From assembly GCA_016873095.1 (NCBI GenBank), contig VGYC01000001.1, forward strand, positions 1-64,000: a DNA stretch of 64,000 bases, read 5' to 3'. Of this stretch, positions 22,930-46,042 are shown piece by piece. A model generated the notes under the pieces. The model saw nothing but the letters and a program-made list of their open reading frames with translations. It was not told the DNA's origin and did no database searches. Source of the stretch: Planctomycetota bacterium. GTDB lineage: Bacteria; Planctomycetota; Planctomycetia; Gemmatales; Gemmataceae. Position 1 is the stretch's first letter. Every line of letters starts with the position of its first letter. The translations under genes and the position numbers were made by a program.

Positions 22930-25900
22930 GTGCGCATGGCGTCCATGGAATCACCTGAGCGGGTGCGTGCAACCATGATCGGCCTGTTTCGCGGCTGCCT
23001 CATTGGAGCCCTGTGTTGTGCCAGCGCCGGCCTCGCCGCAGGGCAGGGGCCCAAGGGATTGCCGCAGACAAAAGAGCCCGTCAAGAAAGAGCCCGCCAGC
23101 AAAGAGCCCGTCAAGAAGGAGCCCGTCAAGAAAAGCGCGGACCCGAAGGACTCGCAAGTCGAACCACCCAAGAAGATGGACAAGTCCGACGCAGCCGCCA
23201 GGATGAAATTTCCGCCCGGGGCAATCGTCGTCCTTGTCGATGAGCTCAAGGACATTCTGGCCGCCGTGCCCAAGATGATCTTCATTCGCATGGAAGAATA
23301 CCAGGCGATGCAAGAGGAAATCCGCGCCCTGAAAGCCAAGCTCAAGAACGAGAAGCTGCTGCCATTCGCCTGCAAACTATCCGGCCGCGTGGACGGCGAT
23401 TTCGTACTTCTCCAGGCCGATTTCACCTTTGAGACAGACGAGGCAAAGCGGACGCTGATTCTAGGCCTGCAAGGAGCCCATCTTCTCGAGGAAGGAAACC
23501 TGGATGGTCAGTCGCCGCACCTGGATTTCGGCCCGGACGGATTCACTGCCCGAGTCGAAAAGGCAGGCAAGCATCATCTGACCTTGAAGTTGAAACTGCC
23601 CGTGTCCTTGAAGCGAACGGGCACGCCGGGCAGCGGCACGGAGCGTGGCTTCGAGCTGGGCTTGCCGGGGTCGGCCGTGACGCTGCTCGCGCTCGAAGTG
23701 CCCGCGTCGGTCCAGGAACTTCGCTGGAACGATCAGCCGGGCCAGAAGTGGAAACCCGGCTCTCCCAAGGGCAAATGGGACATCACCCTGGGCAAGATCA
23801 AGAGCCTCAGCCTTTCCTGGAAGGAGCCGGTTTCGCTGCCGGGAACCGGGCCGTTGCTCTCCGCCGATGGCAAGATCATCGTGCGCGTCGAAGACAATCA
23901 GGCACTGACCAGGGCGGAGATTTCACTCGTGGACCTGCGTGGGCAGGTTCGCGAATTCGCGTTGCATTTGCCGCCGCAAGCCAAGGTCGAGGTCAAATCA
24001 CCGACCGGCATGCTCAAGGAGATTCATCCACCGGACGAGAAAAAACCATTTCACCTTCTCCAGCTCAACGAGCCGACTTTCGAGCCGATAATCGTGGAGG
24101 TTCTGGTACAACAGCCGTGGCCGCCCGCCGGTCAGCGACTGGCCATTGGTCCCTTTTTCCTCGTCAATGCTTACAAGCAGCAGGGAACGATCCTGGTCCG
24201 GGCACAACAGGAAGCGTTGCGTGGCATGCGCTGGACGTTTCAGCGGCACGGCGATGTGTTTCAGCGCGAGGTCCCGGGCAGTCTTTCTGGCCCGGATGTG
24301 CTGGGGTACTTCGAGTACCTGGACATGCTGGCGCCGGCGGCAGCTGCCAAGTCGCCTGACAAGATGGGCGCGGCAACGCCGCTCGTGCTGCGCCTGAGCG
24401 AGGACAAGGCCCAGCTGGAAACGACGACCGAACATTCGATTCAGGTATCGCGCCTGGCCGGCGCGTTTCAGGCAGAAATCACGACGCGCATCAAGGTCAA
24501 GTCGCTGTCGCCTGGAGTGGATTTCATCGATGTGCAGTTGCCGCGCCCGCGCGTGGACGGCCTGGCGCAACTGGGCATTGCTGCCGCCGGCTGGCCAGCC
24601 AACATCCCCTGGAGTGCCATGGTCCTGGCCGCGCAAAAGAACTGGCCGGCGGCCGCGGCAGGCGATTTTCTCATTCAGGGAGAGGGAGGCCTGCTCACGG
24701 AAATGCAGCCGGCGGACAGCAACCGGCGTGCCCGCATCACACTCAGCCGGACCGAAGCACGCGAGTTCACAGTCGTTCTGACCGGACGCTATGTCCTGCC
24801 CGCATATCCGTTGCGCGCCGTCGTGGATATGCCGAGGCCGATCGGCCTGCTGGATCGCGGCGGCAAGATCACGATCGTCGGCAAGAACGACGTCGAAATC
24901 ATGCCGCCAGGGCAGGAAGGCGCCGTTGCTTCTCCTGATCGCAAGCCGCAAGCGCAGCTACTGGACAAGGCTCCTGCGCGAATCGATATGGCCTGGCGCC
25001 TGCGTCCCGCCGAGTTTCCGGTGCGGGGTGTGGTGGATATCGTCATTCACGGCAAGCAGGCGCGCGTCCAGCAGCACCTGCACTTTGCCGGCAGCGATCG
25101 AAAAGACCGCGACGACAAGACGAGTCGGGACGCCGTGCTGTTACGACTCCCGCCGCAGGTAAAGGCGTTCCGCGTCGAACCGCCGAGTCGCCTGGCGGCG
25201 CATTATCCCGAAAAGGGCCAGGCGTGGATCCGGCCTCCGGCAGATGCCCGCCAGTCCGAGCCGGTTTTGCTTGATTATGATTTCACGCTGCCTGCGCACA
25301 CGCTCGACAAGGGAGTGACAGTTCCGCTGGTCTGGCCAGAGCCAACGACACGGCTGGACGTGAAAGTGCGCATCTGGAGCGATGCGGGAATGGTACCGGT
25401 GCTGGCAGCAGCCATTGCCGACCACTGGCGCGTGCGCGGCACCGAGCGCGGCAACAATGACGTCATGCCGGCTCTGGTGCTGCGAGCAACCGGCGGGGTT
25501 GAGCCCTTGATTCTGCACCTGTACGAGAGCCCAGCGCCGTTGCCCGACGCGATCTTCGACCGTGGTCTCGTGCAGATTGCCATTGGTGAAGATGGAGGGC
25601 ACTCCTATCGCGTTCGCTTCCTTGTCCGCAAGCTGAATACAGATCGACTGGAAATCCGCTTGCCGGCAGGTGGAACGTTGCAATCGGCGAGCTATGGCGG
25701 CGACAAACTGACCAACTGGTCGCCCGCTCCCGATGACAAGAACCTGCTACGGTTGCCTCTTCACGCAACCGCCAATGGCCGGCCCACGGTTCTGGACCTT
25801 GAGTTCAAGCTGACGCCATCAGCCAGCGGGCTCGCGTGGCACGAGTCACTGCGACCGCCATCATTCGTGAATGACATACACTTTGGCCCACTGCGCTGGC

Positions 25901-26547
25901 ATGTCTGGACGCCGGTAGACTGGATCGCTTTTGCCGGAGGCGCCAATGTGCAGCTGGACTACCACTGGGTTGTTGAAAATGGCGTGTTCACTCCAGAGGC
26001 AAGTCTAAGCGCCGATGACCTGGAACGCTGGCTGACAGGCGGAGCCGTGGCCCCAACCGGCACGGCAGGGGGCATGGTGTTTTGGCGATCGTCGCTGGAG
26101 CCGCTGTCGCTCTGGCATTTTCCCAGACGGGCCTGGCTGCTGCTCTGCTCGGGCGCGTTGCTGGCGGTCGGTCTGGGTCTGTGCGTGTTGCTGCCGGGAG
26201 CGAATCGAGTGTCGCTCGGCATCCTGATGCTCTTGGTGGCGGCCGGTGGTCTGGCGACGGCGTTGTTCTGGCCTGCCTTGCTCCCCTGGCTTGTGTATGG
26301 TTGCCAGCCCGGATTCGCCGTGCTGCTGATCGTGCTCGGCGTGCAGTGGCTCTTGCAGGAGCGGTATCGGCGCCAAGTGGTCTTCATGCCGGGCTTCACA
26401 CGGCTTGGTTCCAATTCTTCATTGGTCCGCGCCGGCAATCGTCCGCAGGCGTCCACGGTTGATGCGCCGCCGTCCGCCTCCTCGCAACCCGCGCAGCCGT
26501 CGCGCGGCAGTAGCCAGCTCAACGCCGGCGTGTCCCAGGGATCCTAG
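22930..26547 (+). CDS. Giant secreted/membrane protein, one copy of an unknown ~1200-residue module
   Basis: About 1205 residues; starts at 22930 (GTG), 22936, 22945 or 22975 are possible, the last giving the cleanest signal peptide (MIGLFRGCLIGALCCASAGL). A Lys/Pro-rich linker with repeated KEPVKKEP follows. A conserved beginning (PPGAIVVLVDELKDILAAVP, then a helix EEYQAMQEEIRALKAKLK) leads to repeated beta-rich segments such as KLSGRVDGDFVLLQADFTFE and GGHSYRVRFLVRKLNTDRLE. Near the C-terminus are three or four transmembrane helices (AWLLLCSGALLAVGLGLCVL, LGILMLLVAAGGLATALFWP, FAVLLIVLGVQWLLQ) and a polar Ser/Pro tail. The bulk probably lies outside the cytoplasm. The next gene starts 3 bases after the stop. 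No known domain recognised; function unknown. Confidence 0.8.
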   Translation: MRMASMESPERVRATMIGLFRGCLIGALCCASAGLAAGQGPKGLPQTKEPVKKEPASKEPVKKEPVKKSADPKDSQVEPPKKMDKSDAAARMKFPPGAIVVLVDELKDILAAVPKMIFIRMEEYQAMQEEIRALKAKLKNEKLLPFACKLSGRVDGDFVLLQADFTFETDEAKRTLILGLQGAHLLEEGNLDGQSPHLDFGPDGFTARVEKAGKHHLTLKLKLPVSLKRTGTPGSGTERGFELGLPGSAVTLLALEVPASVQELRWNDQPGQKWKPGSPKGKWDITLGKIKSLSLSWKEPVSLPGTGPLLSADGKIIVRVEDNQALTRAEISLVDLRGQVREFALHLPPQAKVEVKSPTGMLKEIHPPDEKKPFHLLQLNEPTFEPIIVEVLVQQPWPPAGQRLAIGPFFLVNAYKQQGTILVRAQQEALRGMRWTFQRHGDVFQREVPGSLSGPDVLGYFEYLDMLAPAAAAKSPDKMGAATPLVLRLSEDKAQLETTTEHSIQVSRLAGAFQAEITTRIKVKSLSPGVDFIDVQLPRPRVDGLAQLGIAAAGWPANIPWSAMVLAAQKNWPAAAAGDFLIQGEGGLLTEMQPADSNRRARITLSRTEAREFTVVLTGRYVLPAYPLRAVVDMPRPIGLLDRGGKITIVGKNDVEIMPPGQEGAVASPDRKPQAQLLDKAPARIDMAWRLRPAEFPVRGVVDIVIHGKQARVQQHLHFAGSDRKDRDDKTSRDAVLLRLPPQVKAFRVEPPSRLAAHYPEKGQAWIRPPADARQSEPVLLDYDFTLPAHTLDKGVTVPLVWPEPTTRLDVKVRIWSDAGMVPVLAAAIADHWRVRGTERGNNDVMPALVLRATGGVEPLILHLYESPAPLPDAIFDRGLVQIAIGEDGGHSYRVRFLVRKLNTDRLEIRLPAGGTLQSASYGGDKLTNWSPAPDDKNLLRLPLHATANGRPTVLDLEFKLTPSASGLAWHESLRPPSFVNDIHFGPLRWHVWTPVDWIAFAGGANVQLDYHWVVENGVFTPEASLSADDLERWLTGGAVAPTGTAGGMVFWRSSLEPLSLWHFPRRAWLLLCSGALLAVGLGLCVLLPGANRVSLGILMLLVAAGGLATALFWPALLPWLVYGCQPGFAVLLIVLGVQWLLQERYRRQVVFMPGFTRLGSNSSLVRAGNRPQASTVDAPPSASSQPAQPSRGSSQLNAGVSQGS

Positions 26548-26550
26548 GCG

Positions 26551-29500
26551 ATGATATCCAAGCTCGAATCGCGATATTCGGGAATGGGGCTGCCTGTCTG
26601 CGCCGGAATGTGCGTTGTGGTTGCCGGCATTTTCTCGCCTCCCGGATTCGGTCAAGCGCCGGCAGCGGAAGATCCCGTGCCCATTCGGCGAGTGAAAGTG
26701 CCGGCGTCGCGGTTGGCGGCGGAACTGGAGCGAGCCCGCGCCGGCATCCTGGTCCCGCTCTCTCGCGACGAGTTCGAGAAACGTGTGCGTCTTGCCGGCA
26801 AAGTCCGTCAAGAACAGCCGCGATTGCTCAGGGCAAGCTATCGCGCCACCGTGGATGATAATGCATTGATCAATGGCCGCGGTGAGTGGACAGTCCAGCA
26901 TCAAGGCAGGACGCCAGCCATCCTGCCGTTGCCAGATTTCAACTTGGCTCTCAGCCAGCTACGTGACGCGAACAACAAGGATGCAGTCCTGGCCGAGTTC
27001 GATGGCAAGTCATTGGGCCTGGTGATCGCCAAGATAGGCGACAAGATCGGAAGTGATCAGGCCGGAGGAGAAAAGCCAGCGAACCAGAAGTTCTACTTTG
27101 ACTGGACTCTGCGTGCCTCTCCAAGCGCCCTCGGACAAACGTTCGTCATGCAGATCCCTCCATGTGCAGCCGCAACTCTGGAATTGCGCCTGGGAGCCGA
27201 TCAACTGCTTGTCGTCTCACCCAAGTCAGCCATGCTCTCGGGGCCCCATGAATCGGAGAGCCCCAAGCACCGCATTTGGCGGCTGAACTTCACCGGCCGG
27301 TCGCAGATCGAGTTCGCCGTCAAGAAGCAGTCCGGTCCTGAAGGCCGGCCGGCCGTGCTGACCAGCCTTCAATGCAGGCAGCAACTGCAGCCCGGGCGTT
27401 GCCAGTCCGAGTTCGAATATCAATTCGAGTGCGCGCACGGATTTCTTGAGCAGTTCGCCTTCATCTGTGACCCCGATCTCGAACCGTATGAAGTCACTGT
27501 AAAAAATGTCGAGCTGAAGGGCTGGGTGATCCGTGAGGAGTCCAAGGGCAAGAAGCTGCTGCTGGTCTCCCTGCGAGAACCCATTCAGGGGACGCTGTCC
27601 GGCCTGGTCGTTCGTTGCTTCTCGCCGCTGAAGGCGGATCAGCGCTGGATCAGCCCGGGACTGCATGTCCAGCAAGCGTTCACGCGCGGCGAAGTCATTC
27701 AACTGACGCTGCCCCCGGAGGTGCAACTTCAGGGTTGGAAATCGGGCCAATTTCAGCTTCTGCGTTCCAGCGTCAATCCCGGCGGCGCGAAAACTCTGAT
27801 CCTGGCACGCTCGGGCGCCGGTCCCAAAGAGCAGGCAGAACCGAGCACTCGACCGACAGGAACACCACGATTCGGCAGCGTGGAATTTCTTGCAAAACAG
27901 CAAAGCTGGTGGAATATCGGGCCGCGCGGGGCTACCTTGACGACCGAAATCGCCTACGAGATTCACCGCGGCAACCTGTTTCAGCTCGAGTTGAAGCTGC
28001 CCGAGCCGGTAACGGACTGGACGGTGGAGGCCGTCCAGCTCAATCCCGGCAAGAAAACGCCGACCTGGATGCTGGCGGGAAGCAACCTGTTGATAAAGCT
28101 GGACGCGCCGCTGACATCCACGGAAGACGTTCGCCTGCGCGTGCGCTTGCGATCCGAAGCACCTCGCAACTGGCCGGCCGGGGGACTTGTCATGCCTTTT
28201 GCGGATCTGGCCCCGGCCGAACCATGTCTGCACGCCGGCGAGCTTGGCGTCAGCATCGATCCTACACTGGACGTGCGCGTGCTGGGCACCGAACTGGCGT
28301 CCGGCCCCGTGGATGTTCACGGCCCATGGGGCAAGAACGCGCTCGATTATGTTTTCTCCTACCGCCAGCAAGCCGTCGCTGGCAAGTTGCAGGTGAAGCC
28401 GCGGCGTGCGAGGCTCGATGCGCAAGTTTTCACCGAGGCGACATTGTCGGGGCCTCTGGCTGCCTGGCGAACAAAACTGACGCTAACGCCGAGGGCAGGC
28501 ATCCCGTCGAGTATTGAACTCGCGATTTCCGGGACCGAGTTGCGTCGGCTGCGCCTGGAGTCTCTGACGACAGCCGTTCGTGCCTTGTCACGACAGCCGA
28601 TCGCCGAGGCCCTGCCGGTGTTGCTGGCCCTTGGTTGTCGCAGCGAGGTGGAACAAGCTCTTCTTGGGTTGGCCTTGCCGCGCGGCCAGCGCTGGCGCAT
28701 CGAACTGGTCGAGCCGCTCGAGCAGCGCACCGAGATCAACCTCGAAGCAACGCTGCAACCGCTCCCCAGCCTCGGCGGCGACGCTGCGCACAAGGAAAAC
28801 CGGAACCGGGACCAGCAGGCGTGGCACGTCCCTCTGGTAACCGTGCTGGACGCCGAACGACAAGAGACGCAGGTCGCCGTTCAGACTATGACCACAGAGG
28901 TCCAGCAGAGCTACTATTCAGGACTCAGTTCCGATGCGGCGCCGCCGGGCGGCGCTCAAAGTCGGCTCACGCTTCAAGGCACATCACCATTCCCAAGCCT
29001 GGCTGTGATCACGCGCCTCAATGCGGGATCTCCTCAGGGCGCGGCCGAAACCTGCGAGCACGCGCTGCTCTTGACCGAATGGCAACCGGATGGCACGCTC
29101 GTGCATCATTTTCGTTTCGAGTTGCTCAACTGGAGCAAACCCAGCATGCCCGTCGTGCTGCCGGCGGGCGCGCGACAGGTGCTTGGCGTCCGTGCGGATG
29201 GCCGCTGGCTCGACACGTTTCCGCGCGAGCTTGTCCCGGATGGTCTGCGCGTTGATTTGCCGGTGCCGGCCGACGGATTCAGGCACGTCTTCGAGCTCGT
29301 CTATCTCGGCCCGCCGGCGCAAGCGGAATGGCCCATCGGAGATTGGTTTCTTGGCGGCGTCTTGCCTGCGCCGCTGCCCAAGCTGCCCGTTGCCGTACTG
29401 GCTTCGCAGCGCCGCTGGCTGTTGCCGCCCGACATGGTTCCTCTGCGTGGTACGGCCTTTCGCAAGGTAGGCGACCCCCATTCCGGACTGCATACTCCTC

Positions 29501-32500
29501 CCGGAACAGCACAGTTGCGCCGACTGTGGCACACCGGCGACTCATTGTTCACGGCCATGGGCTTCAACCCGGGCGCGGCAGCCATCGAAGGACAGCGCGA
29601 ACGACTGGCTGCCGCAGAAATCGCGCTACGAAAGAGGACCACCAAGCCGCGACATCTTGGCGACCTGCTGCAGGACCTCGCCCTGGAACTTGGCCGGAAC
29701 GACGTACTGGTGCTGGATGCCTACTCCCTGAGCGCAGCCGGGCTGCATGTGCAATCGCCCGTCAATGCGGCCCGATCCGACGCTCGCGGTCCTCTCTGGC
29801 GACAAGCGGGGCTGATCATCGTGCCGTGCCAGGCCACGCTGCTTGTGACCACGCGTGCCTGGCTCGACAGTCAGACAAATCGAGATTTCCCGGAACGCGC
29901 TGACGATGAGCTGGCGAGGCCGGTCCAGGAAGCTTTGCTGAACGGCCAGGACGGCAGCGGACGGTTTCGCACGTTGGCATCCTGGTTGCGCGTGCCGGCC
30001 CGAGCCGGAGACGCGACCGCCGGACTTGAGGGCAGCGCGCATGTGCCCGGTCGGCTTCCGGGCTGGACCGAATGGGAGATCGTGCCCGGGCAACCAGAAG
30101 TGGAAGACCTGACAGTCATTCGTCGCCAGTTCATCACGGTATGCGGCATAGTGCTCGCGCTGGCAATGCTCCTGATTGCCAGATCGATCAGCAAGCACGT
30201 GACCGGTGCATGGCGCTTCAGGCTATTGCTTACCTGGATGTGCGCTGCGTTGCTGGGTTGCATCTGGCTACCAAGTCCGTTTGCGGTACTGCCGGTCGCG
30301 CTGCTGTTCTCCGCATTCTTGCTAGGAGTGGTGCACGGGCTGTCCGGACTCTGGGGAGTCCGCGATCGTCCGCTTGCCGGCATTCGACGAAGTCTGACAA
30401 TCTTGCTTGCCGGGGGATGCAGCCTCGCGACGATGGCACCGGCCCGCTCGGGTGGCGACGAGCCGTTCACCGTGTTTCTCCTGCCCGGCAAGAATGCCGA
30501 TGCGCCGAACACCGAGCAGCGTGTGCTCGTCCCACAAGAATTGCTGACGCAGCTCGAACGACTCGCGAACGGGGCTTCGCCGCTCGACGATACTGTCGTG
30601 CTGACCGGGGCACGTTATCAAGGCACAGTGTCGGGCGCTTCCGCCGATTTGACCGTGGATTTTTCCTGTTTCAGCTTCGTTGACAAGAGTCAGCTTTTCG
30701 TGCCGCTGGACGGCGTCGATCTACGACCGGAGGCCTTTCTGGACGGTGCTCCGGTGTACCCAGTCGTTGCACCGGCGCCGCGGAGCGGTTACTTGATTCC
30801 GGTGCAGGGCAGGGGGCCGCATAAGCTCGCGCTTTCCTTCACGACACGAGTGTCACAGTCCGGCGCCAATCAGCAAGTTCGTTTTCAGATTCCAAGACTC
30901 GCCCAAAGTCAGCTCGCAGAATTAAAGTTGCCCGCAAGCATTCAAGATGCTCAGGCCATTGGTGCGCTTGGCAGCCAGGCCCTTGCCAGGTCCGGCAGCG
31001 ACTGGGTGCTCAAGGCGCAGATCGGGCCGCAGCAATTGCTTGATGTTCGATGGCGGTCCGCCACGGAAAAACCGACTCCGGCTGCTCAGATCGAAGTGCG
31101 GGAACTCTATTACTGGGACCTGCGTTTGCCGCTGCCGAGCCTGACCGGAATCCTGAGATACTCAATCGGCAAGGGCCAGATTTCAAGTCTTTCTGTTGCG
31201 CTGCCGGAGGAACTGGAAGTGCGGAGCGTGGAAGCACTGCCCGGGCCGACGTCAGAGAGTATTCCGCGCTTGAAATCTTGGAGTGTTCGCGCGGACAAGA
31301 ACAGGCGAATCCTGGCAGTGGAATTGTTCACGCCGTTTACCGGGGAAATGCAGCTCAAACTTGGCATGGCGCCGCGCCTCGCGGTCCGGCCCGGCAATGT
31401 GGCCTTGCCATTGCCGCTTCCGTTGCAGGTGAAGCCAGCCGGCTTTCAGGAAGGCTTCCTGGCCTATCGCATTGCCGGACTGGAGGCACGCGAGATCCCC
31501 AAGGATCTTGGAATCATCGGCATCGAGCCGGCGGCGTTCATCAAGGTATGGCGGCAGGTCGATGATCGTGACGAAGTACGGCCGACCCGAGCGGTGAACT
31601 TCCGTCGCAACGCACCCAGTGCCAGCCTCCGCCTGAATCTGCTTGCCCCAGGCGCCAGTGCTGCGCAGGAAATAACCTGGGACGTGCAACCGTTTCATGC
31701 CGACGTGACGGCGATATGCGAGATCCATGCCCCCGCCGGCGACCTCATGCTCATTGAATGGCATGTCCCCGCCGCAGTCGTGCTCGCAGATATCCACGGC
31801 CCGCACGTGCATAGCTGGTCGCGACAGAATGCGATCGTGCAAGTCTGGCTGACGCAGCCACAGAAAGAAACACGCGTGACCCTGTGGGGCTGGATGCGGC
31901 TGGCCGCGCCACTGCTGCCAGGCAAGGCCGGCACGATGGCGCTGCCGCACGTGTCCTTGCGTCAACCGATGCCGACGTCGACCGCCGTCCGGTTGCAGCC
32001 CGAGAAGGGCCTCAAGCTTGAGCCGGCTCGGCTTGATGGGTTGCGGAGGTTGCCACCCGGCGAGTCCTCAAATGCCTTGCATTTGACCCCGACTGGATTA
32101 CCTGGAAGCAATTATTCGGCCAGCGTTCGCCTGACGCACGCACCCTTGGCGCCAACGTATCGCTCGTTGACAGTGATGCAGGCGCATGGCGACCGTCTCA
32201 CCCTTGCCGCCGACCTCGCCGTTCAGGGATCGCCGGACGGCACCCCTCTGCATGCACAAGCACGAGGATGGCCGGATCATGTGCAGCTGGACCTTTCCGA
32301 TTTCGTGGCGTCGCCGCGGCGACACAAGAATGTTGCCGGCGTTTCATGGACCGTTCTACTTCCCCCCGGCTTATCACAGCGCATCCCCTTGCGACTTCGA
32401 GCTGAAACATCGCTGACAAACACAGGCGACATGTTAATGCCCGACGTCAGGATCGCTGGAGCTAGCGCGCAGGATCGCTGGGTCGGCGTTCTGGGGTCTG

Positions 32501-33777
32501 AACTGGTCGGCGTGGCTGCAACCGATGCCAAGCCGACTGCAGAACGTGCATCAATCCTCGCGCTCTGGCCTGACATTGCCAAGCAGTTACACGCTGGTGG
32601 AACCTTGTGGAAACTTCTATCGAACGACTGGCGACTTGCGGTGAAGGTGCGCCCATCGTTTGCGGAACCATCCGTGCAGGTTGTTGCTGCAGAACTGGAT
32701 TCCGCGCTGGCACCGGACGGCCGATGGTTACATGAGGCACGATTCGATCTTTATGCCCGCGCCGAAGGCAGTCTCCGATTATTGCTTCCTGGAAACAGCA
32801 GCTTGCTGGCACTGTATCTCGACGCACAGCCGGTCGTGGCAGCACGCGAAGGCAAGTATTTGCGGCTACCCTTGCCAGGTACGGCGAACGCGCACGTGCT
32901 ACGCGTGCGCTGGCAACATGCCGCTTCAGATGAATCCATCGAGGCGCCCAATCTCACCATGCCGACGATCGCCGGTTTGCGGCAGGTCCAGGTAGTGGGT
33001 ACGGTCTGGCTGCCTGCCGGATTCCGTGAAGGATCGCTTTCCCGTGGGCAACCGCTATCGACGGCGCAATGGATGCTCGAGCGAGCACGCGCGCAGCTTC
33101 GGATCATTACACTTCTCGCCCAGCAACGCAAGGACACCGATGTAGAAGCCTGGGAGCAGAGTATGCGCCGCCTCCAGGCAAGACTATACTGGTGCTGCCG
33201 CCAGGCCGAACATCAGTCAAATCTCGCTCGAAGCGAAGAGCCAGGCGCAGGGAACGATGCTGGAATAGTTGAAGCTTCCCGGCAGCTTCAACTGGAGAAT
33301 GCCAGGCTGGCGGAAAATCAACAATTCATGAAACTGCAGAAGACTGCCGCCAAGATCTCGAATCTGCGCGATCCCGATTCGATCGACTACGTCTCATCGC
33401 TGACACGAATTGGCATGACACGCTACTGGAAGGGTGAGCCCGGGGTGACGCCACTCATGCATCTGGCCGCGGAAGCTTCCAGGCAGTATCGTCGGCAATT
33501 GCTCGTCAGCCAGGCGACTGTCATGGCATTAGTCGGCCTGTTGATCCTGTCATGTCTTCCAGTTGCCGCCTGGCTCGGGCGCGTTTTGTGGCCCGAACAG
33601 CTCTTGTTACTGGCCGCCGCCGGTTGCATTGCGTTCGGCTTCAGTCTGCCTGGCGCTGTACTGATCATGCTCGGCTTGCTGGCGCGCGTCATGCTGCTGA
33701 CGCGCCTGGGACAGCGCTGGCAGTCTCGTCGCGCTGACTCTGCCCCAGGCGGCAGCAGCATGCATGCTGCTGGTTGA
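26551..33777 (+). CDS. Giant secreted/membrane protein, two copies of the same unknown module
   Basis: 2408 residues. A signal-like N-terminus (GLPVCAGMCVVVAGIFSPPG) precedes module 1, which begins RRVKVPASRLAAELERARAG. Residues about 1190-1295 hold a group of transmembrane helices (FITVCGIVLALAMLLIARSI, LLLTWMCAALLGCIWLPSPF, LLFSAFLLGVVHGLSGLWGV). Module 2 then starts like the first (QRVLVPQELLTQLERLANGA) and ends with another helix cluster (ATVMALVGLLILSCLPVAAW, LLLLAAAGCIAFGFSLPGAV). Between are long beta-rich stretches with recurring LP-G patterns, for example VLPAGARQVLGVRADGRWLD in module 1 and LLPGNSSLLALYLDAQPVVA in module 2, matching one in the preceding gene. It forms an operon with that gene. 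Function unknown; a cell-envelope assembly or surface layer role is a guess. Confidence 0.8.
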   Translation: MISKLESRYSGMGLPVCAGMCVVVAGIFSPPGFGQAPAAEDPVPIRRVKVPASRLAAELERARAGILVPLSRDEFEKRVRLAGKVRQEQPRLLRASYRATVDDNALINGRGEWTVQHQGRTPAILPLPDFNLALSQLRDANNKDAVLAEFDGKSLGLVIAKIGDKIGSDQAGGEKPANQKFYFDWTLRASPSALGQTFVMQIPPCAAATLELRLGADQLLVVSPKSAMLSGPHESESPKHRIWRLNFTGRSQIEFAVKKQSGPEGRPAVLTSLQCRQQLQPGRCQSEFEYQFECAHGFLEQFAFICDPDLEPYEVTVKNVELKGWVIREESKGKKLLLVSLREPIQGTLSGLVVRCFSPLKADQRWISPGLHVQQAFTRGEVIQLTLPPEVQLQGWKSGQFQLLRSSVNPGGAKTLILARSGAGPKEQAEPSTRPTGTPRFGSVEFLAKQQSWWNIGPRGATLTTEIAYEIHRGNLFQLELKLPEPVTDWTVEAVQLNPGKKTPTWMLAGSNLLIKLDAPLTSTEDVRLRVRLRSEAPRNWPAGGLVMPFADLAPAEPCLHAGELGVSIDPTLDVRVLGTELASGPVDVHGPWGKNALDYVFSYRQQAVAGKLQVKPRRARLDAQVFTEATLSGPLAAWRTKLTLTPRAGIPSSIELAISGTELRRLRLESLTTAVRALSRQPIAEALPVLLALGCRSEVEQALLGLALPRGQRWRIELVEPLEQRTEINLEATLQPLPSLGGDAAHKENRNRDQQAWHVPLVTVLDAERQETQVAVQTMTTEVQQSYYSGLSSDAAPPGGAQSRLTLQGTSPFPSLAVITRLNAGSPQGAAETCEHALLLTEWQPDGTLVHHFRFELLNWSKPSMPVVLPAGARQVLGVRADGRWLDTFPRELVPDGLRVDLPVPADGFRHVFELVYLGPPAQAEWPIGDWFLGGVLPAPLPKLPVAVLASQRRWLLPPDMVPLRGTAFRKVGDPHSGLHTPPGTAQLRRLWHTGDSLFTAMGFNPGAAAIEGQRERLAAAEIALRKRTTKPRHLGDLLQDLALELGRNDVLVLDAYSLSAAGLHVQSPVNAARSDARGPLWRQAGLIIVPCQATLLVTTRAWLDSQTNRDFPERADDELARPVQEALLNGQDGSGRFRTLASWLRVPARAGDATAGLEGSAHVPGRLPGWTEWEIVPGQPEVEDLTVIRRQFITVCGIVLALAMLLIARSISKHVTGAWRFRLLLTWMCAALLGCIWLPSPFAVLPVALLFSAFLLGVVHGLSGLWGVRDRPLAGIRRSLTILLAGGCSLATMAPARSGGDEPFTVFLLPGKNADAPNTEQRVLVPQELLTQLERLANGASPLDDTVVLTGARYQGTVSGASADLTVDFSCFSFVDKSQLFVPLDGVDLRPEAFLDGAPVYPVVAPAPRSGYLIPVQGRGPHKLALSFTTRVSQSGANQQVRFQIPRLAQSQLAELKLPASIQDAQAIGALGSQALARSGSDWVLKAQIGPQQLLDVRWRSATEKPTPAAQIEVRELYYWDLRLPLPSLTGILRYSIGKGQISSLSVALPEELEVRSVEALPGPTSESIPRLKSWSVRADKNRRILAVELFTPFTGEMQLKLGMAPRLAVRPGNVALPLPLPLQVKPAGFQEGFLAYRIAGLEAREIPKDLGIIGIEPAAFIKVWRQVDDRDEVRPTRAVNFRRNAPSASLRLNLLAPGASAAQEITWDVQPFHADVTAICEIHAPAGDLMLIEWHVPAAVVLADIHGPHVHSWSRQNAIVQVWLTQPQKETRVTLWGWMRLAAPLLPGKAGTMALPHVSLRQPMPTSTAVRLQPEKGLKLEPARLDGLRRLPPGESSNALHLTPTGLPGSNYSASVRLTHAPLAPTYRSLTVMQAHGDRLTLAADLAVQGSPDGTPLHAQARGWPDHVQLDLSDFVASPRRHKNVAGVSWTVLLPPGLSQRIPLRLRAETSLTNTGDMLMPDVRIAGASAQDRWVGVLGSELVGVAATDAKPTAERASILALWPDIAKQLHAGGTLWKLLSNDWRLAVKVRPSFAEPSVQVVAAELDSALAPDGRWLHEARFDLYARAEGSLRLLLPGNSSLLALYLDAQPVVAAREGKYLRLPLPGTANAHVLRVRWQHAASDESIEAPNLTMPTIAGLRQVQVVGTVWLPAGFREGSLSRGQPLSTAQWMLERARAQLRIITLLAQQRKDTDVEAWEQSMRRLQARLYWCCRQAEHQSNLARSEEPGAGNDAGIVEASRQLQLENARLAENQQFMKLQKTAAKISNLRDPDSIDYVSSLTRIGMTRYWKGEPGVTPLMHLAAEASRQYRRQLLVSQATVMALVGLLILSCLPVAAWLGRVLWPEQLLLLAAAGCIAFGFSLPGAVLIMLGLLARVMLLTRLGQRWQSRRADSAPGGSSMHAAG

Positions 33778-42828: not shown

Positions 42829-45800
42829 TCACTTCGCCACGCGCTGCGTCAGCAAATACCCCACGAGATCGCGAAAATCGCGTTCGGAGACCTGATCCAC
42901 GAAGTTCGCCGGCATCGGCGACAGTGGGGCCGTCGCACGCTCATCGACATCCGAGCGAGCAACGCGCACCTCCTTGCCCGTCTGGTCAGCGAGTACATAG
43001 ACTTCGCCGTCTTGCCGCAGGAACAGGCCGTTGACCAGCCGGCCGTTCTTGAGCGTCAGCACCGTCACGCGGCAGGCCTGATCGACGTTGCGATTCGGGT
43101 CGAGGATGTCTTCCAGCAGGCGATCGAGGCCGCGGATGCCGACGCCGTCAAGCTGCGGGCCGATCTTGGCGCCCTGATTGGCAAGCTGATGGCAGGACGC
43201 ACAGTGCTTGGCGAAGACCTTGGCGCCGGCGGCGGTGTCGGCCTTCCCGGCCAGGAAGCTCTGGCGACGCTGATTGAAGAGCTGCTGCAAGCGGGCATCG
43301 ACCGCCGGCAGGCCGCGCGTCAGGTCGGCGAGTTTCTTGTCGATGTCGGGGATGCGTGCCTGTCGCAGCCGCACATCCACTTCGCGATCCTGCAAGAGCC
43401 GGCCGGATGCCTTGCCCTTGGCGACGGCTTCCAGCAGCCTGGTTCCGCCCATGGAACTGCCCGATAGCGCCAGCGCGATGGCCCGCTGCAGCGGGGCTGG
43501 CGCCGCTTGCAAAGCATCGATGAGCTTGCCATGCGCCTTGGGCGTTTGGGCGGCGGCAAGGGCGACAGCCGCCTGCGCGCGGACCTCGAAGTTCTCGCTA
43601 TCGTCGGCCAGCAGCTTGGCCAGCATGCCTGCGTGCTTGACAGGATCCAGACTGGCCAGCGTTTGCAACGCTTTCTTGCGGCGCGGGACTTCGACCCGGC
43701 GGTCGCCCGCCAGGTCGGCGATGGTGTCCTGAACGTTTAGCAGCCGCAGACTGCCGGCCAGGTCTAGGCCCAGGTCTTTCTGCTCCCCGGCCGGCGAGCG
43801 CAACAGCTGATTGGTCAACTCGCCGGCATGACGCTGCTCCGCATCGGCAAGCCTGCTGCCACGTTCCTGGTTGGCCTCGACCACGATCTTGAGCAAGCGT
43901 GCTTCGCCGGGCAGGTCGCGCGGAACCCTGGCCCGATACAGGGTCAGCACTTCGTTGCTCATCTCCGCCGGCCCGTAACGAGCAATGTGATGAGCGAACC
44001 GCGGCAACGCCGCTAGCCCCTCGGCGCTCCTCTTGACGTGGTCCATCAAGAATATCGCCGACTCCTTGGAGCGCAGGCCGGGGCAGACCTCGGCCAGCGC
44101 GCGGCGTTCCTTCTCCGTCCAGTCCATCTTGGTCACGTCCTTCCAGGCGGACGCGATTAACTGGTCGCGCAGGGCCATGCGTTTCGCATGGATCAAATGG
44201 TCGTCCTCGCGCGGCGTCGCGTGCAGCAGCGCCAGCAACGGCTTCAGATGCCCGGGTCCGGGATGTCCGCCCAGGGCCTCGGCGGCAGCGCGCTGCACGA
44301 ATGCGTCCTTGTCTTTCAGTCCGGCGAGTGCGGCCGAGCGTGTGCCATCCGTCCAGGGCTTGTGCTCCGCCAGGATGCGCATGGCGTGGACGCGGACCAG
44401 GGATTCCGTGTCACTCAGCGCGTGCAGGAGCACCTTCTCGTCCAGCGATTGCGTCCGCTCCAGCACCCACAGGGCGTGGGCGCGCTGCCTCGGCGTCCCC
44501 TTGGCGGCAAGCCGCCGCGCTGTCTCGATGCCCTTGTTGCCGCCGCGCTCGACAAGCTGATGCGTCGCGAACAGGCGGGCGGTCAGGTTCGGACTGTCGA
44601 GCGCCTCGGCCAGATCGCTGACCTTCATACGCGTGAAGTCCGGCATGGCGGGAACGGGCAAATTGCTTCTGGGCCCGCGATAGACGATCCGCCAGATGCG
44701 GCCACGGAAGCGGTCCCGCCCCGGATGATCCAGCGGCACCTCGTAATGCCCGATGATGCGGTTGTAGAAATCGGCGACGTAAAGCGCCCCGTCCGGGCCG
44801 AGCTTGATGTCCACCGGCCGAAACCACGGATCGTCGCAGGTCACGAAGTCCGGCATGGCGATGGCCTTGTAGGTCGAGCCATGCCGTTCGAGCCGGTCGC
44901 GATTGACGCGGTTGGTCACGACGTTGCCGATGAAGATGTTGTCGCGGAACGCCCGCGGGAAACGGTCGTCCGCATAGTAGGCGATGCCAGCGATGGCGGT
45001 AGAGCCGTGATCGTGCGCCAGCATCTCCGGGCCGTAGCCGAGGCCGTCGTGCGGCCGGCCGAAGCTGGGATAGTACGCGCCCTTCAAAAGTTGATAGATC
45101 GGCCGGCTATGGCAATCGCACGAGTAGAGATTGCCGAGCGGATCGAACGCCAGCCCGAACGGGTTGACCTGCCCGTGCGTGAAATGCTCGAGCCGCGAAC
45201 CATCGGCCTTGAAACGATACGTGTTGCCGGAAGACATGTGGATCGGATTCGTGTCCTTCGTCTTGACGCTCGACTTGTTGGCGAAGCCGTGGCAGGCGTA
45301 GATCCAGCCGTCGAAGCCCAGCGCGAACTCGCCGGTGAGCCCGTGCGTGTCGTTGAAGCCGTACTCGCTGAGCAAGATCTCGCGACGATCCGCCTTGCCG
45401 TCGCCGTCGGAGTCGCCCAGGCGATAGACATTGGGGATGCTGAAGACGATCGCTTCGGTCCTGGCGGGCGGCCCGGCGTCAGCCCGCCGTGTGCCGCGCG
45501 GCAACGGCAGCACGCCGATGGGGATGTTCAGCCCGTCAGCGAAGACGGAGATCTTGCGTGCCCGGCCGTCGGGTCCGAAGTCCTCGAGAATCTTGACGCG
45601 GTCTTTCGGCTTGCGCCCCGGCGGCGCGGCATAAGGATACTCCACCGACTCCGTCACCCACAATCGCCCGGCGGCGTCAAAGGCGATGTTGATCGGCTTG
45701 TTGACCTCCGGTTCCGCCGCCACCAGCTGCACGATGAAGCCCTCCGGTACTCGCAGCGTCTTGAGCTGCTTCTCCGCCGGCAACGGTTCGGTGGCGGCGA

Positions 45801-45891
45801 TGTGCGGCGACGGTTTCCAGGGTTGCTGAGACTGGGATTTGGTCAGCAGGCTGTAGGCCAGGAATACCGCGAAAATGACTCTTCGGCACAT
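42829..45891 (-). CDS. PVC-type propeller-HEAT-cytochrome c (CxxCH) protein
   Basis: About 1020 residues. A signal peptide (MCRRVIFAVFLAYSLLTKSQ) precedes a dehydrogenase-like propeller (TLRVPEGFIVQLVAAEPEVN, KPINIAFDAAGRLWVTESVE, NPFGLAFDPLGNLYSCDCHS, DIKLGPDGALYVADFYNRII). HEAT-like repeats cover about residues 440-850. The C-terminal cytochrome c domain has the heme motif AKHCASCHQLANQGAKIGPQ and ends DFRDLVGYLLTQRVAK. This matches the planctomycete TIGR02604/TIGR02603 arrangement. Expected in the periplasm, oxidising an unknown substrate and passing electrons to the heme. It diverges from the DUF1549 gene at 46043 with about 150 bases between. Confidence 0.9.
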   Translation of the reverse strand: MCRRVIFAVFLAYSLLTKSQSQQPWKPSPHIAATEPLPAEKQLKTLRVPEGFIVQLVAAEPEVNKPINIAFDAAGRLWVTESVEYPYAAPPGRKPKDRVKILEDFGPDGRARKISVFADGLNIPIGVLPLPRGTRRADAGPPARTEAIVFSIPNVYRLGDSDGDGKADRREILLSEYGFNDTHGLTGEFALGFDGWIYACHGFANKSSVKTKDTNPIHMSSGNTYRFKADGSRLEHFTHGQVNPFGLAFDPLGNLYSCDCHSRPIYQLLKGAYYPSFGRPHDGLGYGPEMLAHDHGSTAIAGIAYYADDRFPRAFRDNIFIGNVVTNRVNRDRLERHGSTYKAIAMPDFVTCDDPWFRPVDIKLGPDGALYVADFYNRIIGHYEVPLDHPGRDRFRGRIWRIVYRGPRSNLPVPAMPDFTRMKVSDLAEALDSPNLTARLFATHQLVERGGNKGIETARRLAAKGTPRQRAHALWVLERTQSLDEKVLLHALSDTESLVRVHAMRILAEHKPWTDGTRSAALAGLKDKDAFVQRAAAEALGGHPGPGHLKPLLALLHATPREDDHLIHAKRMALRDQLIASAWKDVTKMDWTEKERRALAEVCPGLRSKESAIFLMDHVKRSAEGLAALPRFAHHIARYGPAEMSNEVLTLYRARVPRDLPGEARLLKIVVEANQERGSRLADAEQRHAGELTNQLLRSPAGEQKDLGLDLAGSLRLLNVQDTIADLAGDRRVEVPRRKKALQTLASLDPVKHAGMLAKLLADDSENFEVRAQAAVALAAAQTPKAHGKLIDALQAAPAPLQRAIALALSGSSMGGTRLLEAVAKGKASGRLLQDREVDVRLRQARIPDIDKKLADLTRGLPAVDARLQQLFNQRRQSFLAGKADTAAGAKVFAKHCASCHQLANQGAKIGPQLDGVGIRGLDRLLEDILDPNRNVDQACRVTVLTLKNGRLVNGLFLRQDGEVYVLADQTGKEVRVARSDVDERATAPLSPMPANFVDQVSERDFRDLVGYLLTQRVAK

Positions 45892-46042
45892 CCTCAAGTC
45901 TCCAAGTCCAGGGAACGACATTCTATGAACCAGCAACGGTCTTCAGAGAATCTTGCAAGACTTGTCGAATCGTTGGATGTAAAATAGGCCCAGCCTGCCT
46001 GACGCCCTTTTTCCGCCCGAATGCTTGTGCGAGAATGTCGTT

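Follow-up and report, generated by a model that had tools for sequence, protein, structure and literature searches.

Ost1 (ribophorin I) is thought to serve oligosaccharyltransferase, its lumenal M1N domains catching emerging proteins and holding them near a separate membrane enzyme. The pair of giant planctomycete genes analysed here, P1 and P2, may resemble Ost1 in its predicted tandem M1N-like β-domains, without a peptidase domain, beside a transmembrane (TM) segment, and Ost1 was among its best structural matches. However, Ost1 has two such domains and one TM helix, whereas each of the three modules here has some five domains and at least three TM helices. P1 and P2 showed no sequence similarity to Ost1 and no ribophorin I Pfam match, and no oligosaccharyltransferase genes are constantly linked to them. 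Membership of the ribophorin I family was rejected, as there was no family match.

M1 aminopeptidases and LTA4 hydrolase are alike in that the predicted domain fold is that of their N-terminal domain, but P1 and P2 have no HExxH catalytic domain and repeat the domain in long arrays. Assignment as an M1 peptidase was rejected because the zinc motif and a Pfam peptidase M1 match were both absent. The VIT domain of inter-α-inhibitor heavy chains (6fpy) was matched with a Foldseek probability of 1.00, but a Pfam search of P1/P2 detected neither a vWA domain nor any other ITIH feature. Large arrays of β-sandwich domains also occur in α2-macroglobulin/complement proteins and integrins; Foldseek TM-scores to these were near 0.1, with low probability or poor superposition, and P1/P2 lack the CxEQ thioester. 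Giant planctomycete cell-surface proteins of 4,000–10,500 aa with a planctomycete export motif have been described (PMC8567305). They share very large size and (for P1/P2, predicted) export, but have a different N-terminal motif and are set apart from the P1/P2 family by their description in that paper.

P1 and P2 lie in a window of 64,000 nucleotides, the whole stretch of DNA analysed, from contig 1 of an 8.36-Mb assembly. The nearest named relatives found by a contig search with a Gemmataceae profile were Gemmataceae/Gemmatales and other planctomycete MAGs. P1 (22930..26547, + strand, 1205 aa) has a predicted signal peptide, five β-domains, three TM helices and a cytoplasmic tail, and is kept across the phylum. 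P2 (26551..33777, + strand, 2408 aa) carries two modules, P2A and P2B, probably fused. Both ORFs are open at these coordinates on the same strand, with a spacer of 3 bases (26548–26550), and together they cover 10,845 bases or 16.9% of the window, confirming the gap and the ~17% share given by the first-pass annotation.

That annotation had also read P1 and each half of P2 as three copies of one module. To compare them, P1/P2 relatives were gathered from 59 related genomes, and 30 P1 and 29 P2 proteins were aligned. The hhalign comparison of the profiles for P1, P2A (P2 residues 1–1300) and P2B (1300–2408) gave E values of 2e-37 for P1 versus P2A, 1e-34 for P1 versus P2B, and 6e-33 for P2A versus P2B, with 99.9% probability in all three pairs and collinear matches across 940–1000 columns. 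Reversed or column-shuffled control profiles stayed at background (E 0.0025 or worse), so the three copies are borne out over their whole length. A HMMER profile of P1 proteins only matched the P2 proteins of relatives with E values down to 1e-34, and a wide P1 profile (A8) covered whole P2 modules in other families at E < 1e-70. Against the window's own 8.36-Mb genome, this same profile, built on 30 P1 proteins drawn across many families, detected P2B (9.5e-43) and P2A (3e-24), and nothing better than E 0.065 in the rest of the genome. Direct blastp among the window's own three modules was weak (best E 2e-5, then 5e-4), so by eye the three-way likeness is visible as a pattern alone. The literal start motif proposed for all three modules, VPx(2)Lx(2)L[ED], does not occur anywhere in P1 or P2. 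The actual starts are VPASRLAAELE in P2A and VPQELLTQLE in P2B (VPx3Lx2-3LE), and the equivalent place in P1 reads VLVDELKDIL.

Self-comparison of each module profile revealed repeats at shifts of ~165–195 residues and multiples thereof. When the modules were cut into five pieces, D1 matched D1 across modules at 97–99% and D5 matched D5 at 97–98%, while D2 to D4 scored mostly high across modules and D2, D3 and D4 were also similar to one another. The position-matched similarity, together with this cross-similarity, indicates that each module is an array of five domains and that the array was duplicated as a unit. At the sequence level, each module is about five related β-domains of 170–200 aa followed by a C-terminal membrane cluster. 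The proposed ~1200-residue unit thus stands as a full-length, β-rich, membrane-anchored copy but not as a single domain; the repeat is ~180 residues long, in roughly 15 copies.

In P1, hydropathy places a signal-peptide region at residues 1–40 (22930..23049), though translation may in truth begin at an ATG further downstream. D1 (residues 110–304, 23257..23841) matches P2A-D1 (97%) and P2B-D1 (99%). D2 (305–489, 23842..24396) was delimited by profile match and a self-repeat shift of ~192 residues, and D3 (490–693, 24397..25008) by self-repeat and profile match. D4 (694–867, 25009..25530) and D5 (868–1069, 25531..26136) have the predicted M1 aminopeptidase and M1/M61 N-domain fold, respectively. 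Hydropathy and the model then give a three-TM-helix cluster (1070–1142, 26137..26355), followed by a tail (26356..26544) predicted to be cytoplasmic by the positive-inside rule. Its motif, RYRRQVVFMPGFTR...SS...STVDAP (RYRRQ-type), is kept in the alignment of Gemmataceae relatives.

P2, also on the + strand, opens with a signal-peptide region by hydropathy (residues 1–36, 26551..26658). Mapping from the P1 profile located P2A D1–D5 at residues ~66–263, 264–439, 440–619, 620–825 and 826–1010 (26746..29580). From sequence and alignment, an α/β-looking insert specific to P2A (residues ~1011–1190, 29581..30120) lies between D5 and the TM cluster; it is conserved and found in module A alone. The central membrane cluster (1195–1300, 30133..30450) was set by hydropathy and relatives. 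Its last segment, which was below the hydropathy cut-off in the window and was read off the sequence, resembles a signal peptide, as if from an ancestral third gene. P2B D1–D5 occupy residues 1329–1506, 1507–1675, 1676–1866, 1867–2036 and 2037–2170 (30535..33060; model m155807f98612). A predicted helical segment (2171–2269, 33061..33357) follows D5, and a C-terminal TM cluster (2308–2397, 33472..33741) was detected by hydropathy and in the model.

A terminal TM cluster in each module, as first annotated, was recovered by hydropathy at P1 1070–1142, P2 1195–1261 and P2 2324–2377, and in all three modules the side predicted to face inwards carries positive charges. The predicted topology of P1 is a signal peptide, an array outside, three helices and a tail inside; that of P2 is a signal peptide, array A, the central membrane cluster, array B and the final cluster. 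The envelope localisation of the first-pass annotation and, more narrowly, an inner-membrane-anchored periplasmic location are likewise predicted, from signal-peptide and TM calls.

AlphaFold2 models built on 13-sequence alignments had a mean pLDDT of 72.4 (pTM 0.42) for P1 and 77.1 (pTM 0.46) for P2B. The local domain folds are usable, but at these pTM values the inter-domain arrangement is not, so a rod shape is a guess. In Foldseek and VIA-align comparisons P1 D4, P1 D5 and P2B D1 matched the N-terminal domain of M1/M61 peptidases in two independent models (Z 11.5–13.5, rmsd ~3.0–3.8 Å, ~145–163 residues). P1 D4 (model 605–777) aligned to 4qhp with Z 11.5 and rmsd 3.5 over 151 aa, P1 D5 (model 779–980) gave Z ~12 and rmsd ~3.0–3.8 over 146–163 aa, and P2B D1 aligned to the ERAP1/IRAP N-domain with Z 13.5 and rmsd 3.0 Å over 153 aa. 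Models without relatives typically top out at Z 7–8, so the module domain match stands out. The remaining domains were assigned to the fold through homology to the matched ones. All domains for which a match was possible were predicted to adopt the M1-aminopeptidase N-domain fold, which is accordingly the predicted fold of the repeating unit.

The statement that no known domain is present holds for sequence, but not for predicted structure. Pfam, NCBIfam and PDB sequence searches with single proteins and profiles gave nothing credible; Pfam had no match for P1 or P2 at E up to 5, nor for any of the 25 P1 relatives examined (E up to 1). Scattered Pfam matches in single family members were rejected, as the other members did not share them. 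A motif search of P1 and P2 detected no HExxH zinc motif, GAMEN-type motif or CxEQ thioester. Since the zinc motif and any Pfam family are absent, we regard the array as enzyme-free. In bacteria this would be the M1N fold as a long enzyme-free array, whose nearest structural match is the two-domain version in eukaryotic oligosaccharyltransferase.

The broad P1 profile matched 129 of the 142 good genomes of one planctomycete class (~91%) and 76 of the 236 genomes of a phylum sample. Five near-complete Gemmataceae genomes (G009, G013, G021, G024 and G367) gave no match to the P1 profile; these apparent losses indicate that the proposed P1/P2 complex is not strictly essential. The contig search with the Gemmataceae profile returned planctomycete records only, and this profile is too insensitive to exclude other phyla. 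We found no description of the pair in the open literature searched. The planctomycete envelope is atypical, and its lineage-specific structural proteins are mostly unknown. With its presence in ~91% of the sampled good class genomes and its lack of any Pfam entry, this giant two-gene system makes a strong core-component candidate. Its role is directly testable, as Planctopirus limnophila has been the subject of a genome-wide transposon-insertion (TraDIS) study (PMC10632474).

In 55 of the 56 loci showing both genes, P1 and P2 were same-strand neighbours; the exception was genome G008, where they lie on different contigs. A 4-bp overlap is frequent and spacing mostly ranges from this overlap to ~120 bases; larger overlaps arise because ORF starts are over-long. 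In the neighbourhoods of related loci, no third conserved gene was constantly linked to the pair. Partial neighbours were an inositol monophosphatase upstream in some families, a GNAT gene downstream in others, and an S9 peptidase in some Gemmataceae. A search for plasmid carriage gave no match. In the window, a BBP7 β-barrel gene (33893–35245, − strand) adjoins P2 in convergent orientation; among relatives, it was not seen to accompany the pair constantly.

In a tree of 153 modules, P1, P2A and P2B formed the three main clades, with a few long branches misplaced. At locus L156 (2334–12887), P1 and the fused P2 are replaced by three single-module genes in tandem, all of which begin with a segment like a signal peptide. 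Following their order in the locus, these genes joined the L157/L159 P1, P2A and P2B, respectively (supports of 0.989 and 0.966, with a weak grouping for 2A). The clades and this positional grouping indicate that the triplication is older than the sampled families. Because three separate secreted genes occur in some relatives, P2 is probably a fusion of two modules, the alternative being a split in L156. P1 length is steady, whereas P2 ranges from ~1170 to 2720 aa across relatives. Some Gemmataceae have P2 cut to 1170–1650 aa, and their P2B is missing D4, D5 and the final TM cluster. In L080, L081 and L085, module B of the shortened P2 stops after D2–D3 and has no TM cluster.

We tentatively favour, at somewhat less than an even chance, a reading in which P1 and P2 are the two subunits of a single periplasmic scaffold complex, characteristic of planctomycetes, that is anchored in the inner membrane and contains three copies of the module that are not equivalent. 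The enzyme-free binding fold and the array form suggest this function, as do the TM clusters, steady presence, operon-like adjacency and conservation throughout the class. The arrays would project into the periplasm as jointed rods, and P1, P2A and P2B, kept together in fixed order, could form a pseudo-threefold complex evolved from a homomeric ancestor. By analogy with Ost1, PIG-T and TAF2, whose M1N domains are also enzyme-free, the module domains may bind and position other proteins. The complex may arrange proteins of the envelope, or keep membranes a set distance apart, in the highly invaginated planctomycete cells. The shortened P2B of some Gemmataceae implies that strict pseudo-threefold symmetry is not needed everywhere. 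A bolder version, in which a class-defining complex of three paralogous periplasmic arrays would be a pseudo-threefold skeleton of a kind new among bacteria, setting the spacing and shape of the invaginated envelope, is doubtful.

P1 and P2 could instead act like Ost1, as a partner that holds substrates for an enzyme that modifies envelope proteins or takes part in secretion. Ost1 was among the best Foldseek/VIA matches and P1 D4–D5–TM follows a similar order; in addition, a gene for a PMT-type mannosyltransferase lies immediately upstream in one of the relatives, L152. P1 D4–D5 and P2B D2–D3 matched the two lumenal Ost1 domains with Z ~13, but with an rmsd of 15–16 Å over both (16 Å for P1 D4–D5), because the domain orientation differs. 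The fold is also common to many unrelated proteins, and neither a glycosyltransferase nor any other enzyme is linked constantly to the pair. We consider this role unlikely.

A bridge from the inner to the outer membrane or from membrane to wall, possibly moving lipids along a continuous β-surface as in bridge-like transport proteins, would fit long β-arrays anchored by TM clusters and a P2 array of variable length, as expected of a spacer. The adjoining BBP7 gene also points this way, but it is convergent and did not emerge as a conserved neighbour. Prediction gives the unit as a closed, M1N-like domain and not a groove repeat. We consider a bridge quite unlikely. A surface receptor or adhesin signalling through the P1 tail is less probable again; the conserved motif after the last TM helix and the frequency of β-repeat arrays among bacterial adhesins favour it, but a single copy set in most Gemmataceae and class-wide conservation are unlike fast-changing adhesins, and anchoring by several C-terminal helices suggests an inner-membrane location. 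Convergence of β-rich, TM-ended proteins in place of homology would agree with the weak blastp matches, but is already contradicted by collinear full-length profile matches (E 1e-33 or better, controls at background) and by the genome-wide specificity of the P1 profile for P2 modules, and is almost certainly wrong.

Several minor observations were made beside these results. The window holds two further large + strand ORFs, of 1047 aa (37099–40242) and 599 aa (44188–45987), without a Pfam match at 1e-3. P2 is split into two ORFs at L084. In family f4, a ~200-residue stretch lies between predicted TM helices of the ~2690-aa P2. Most Gemmataceae genomes have one P1–P2 copy set; many f4 genomes carry two pairs, and genome G289 has paralogous pairs (L154 and L155) at distant loci.
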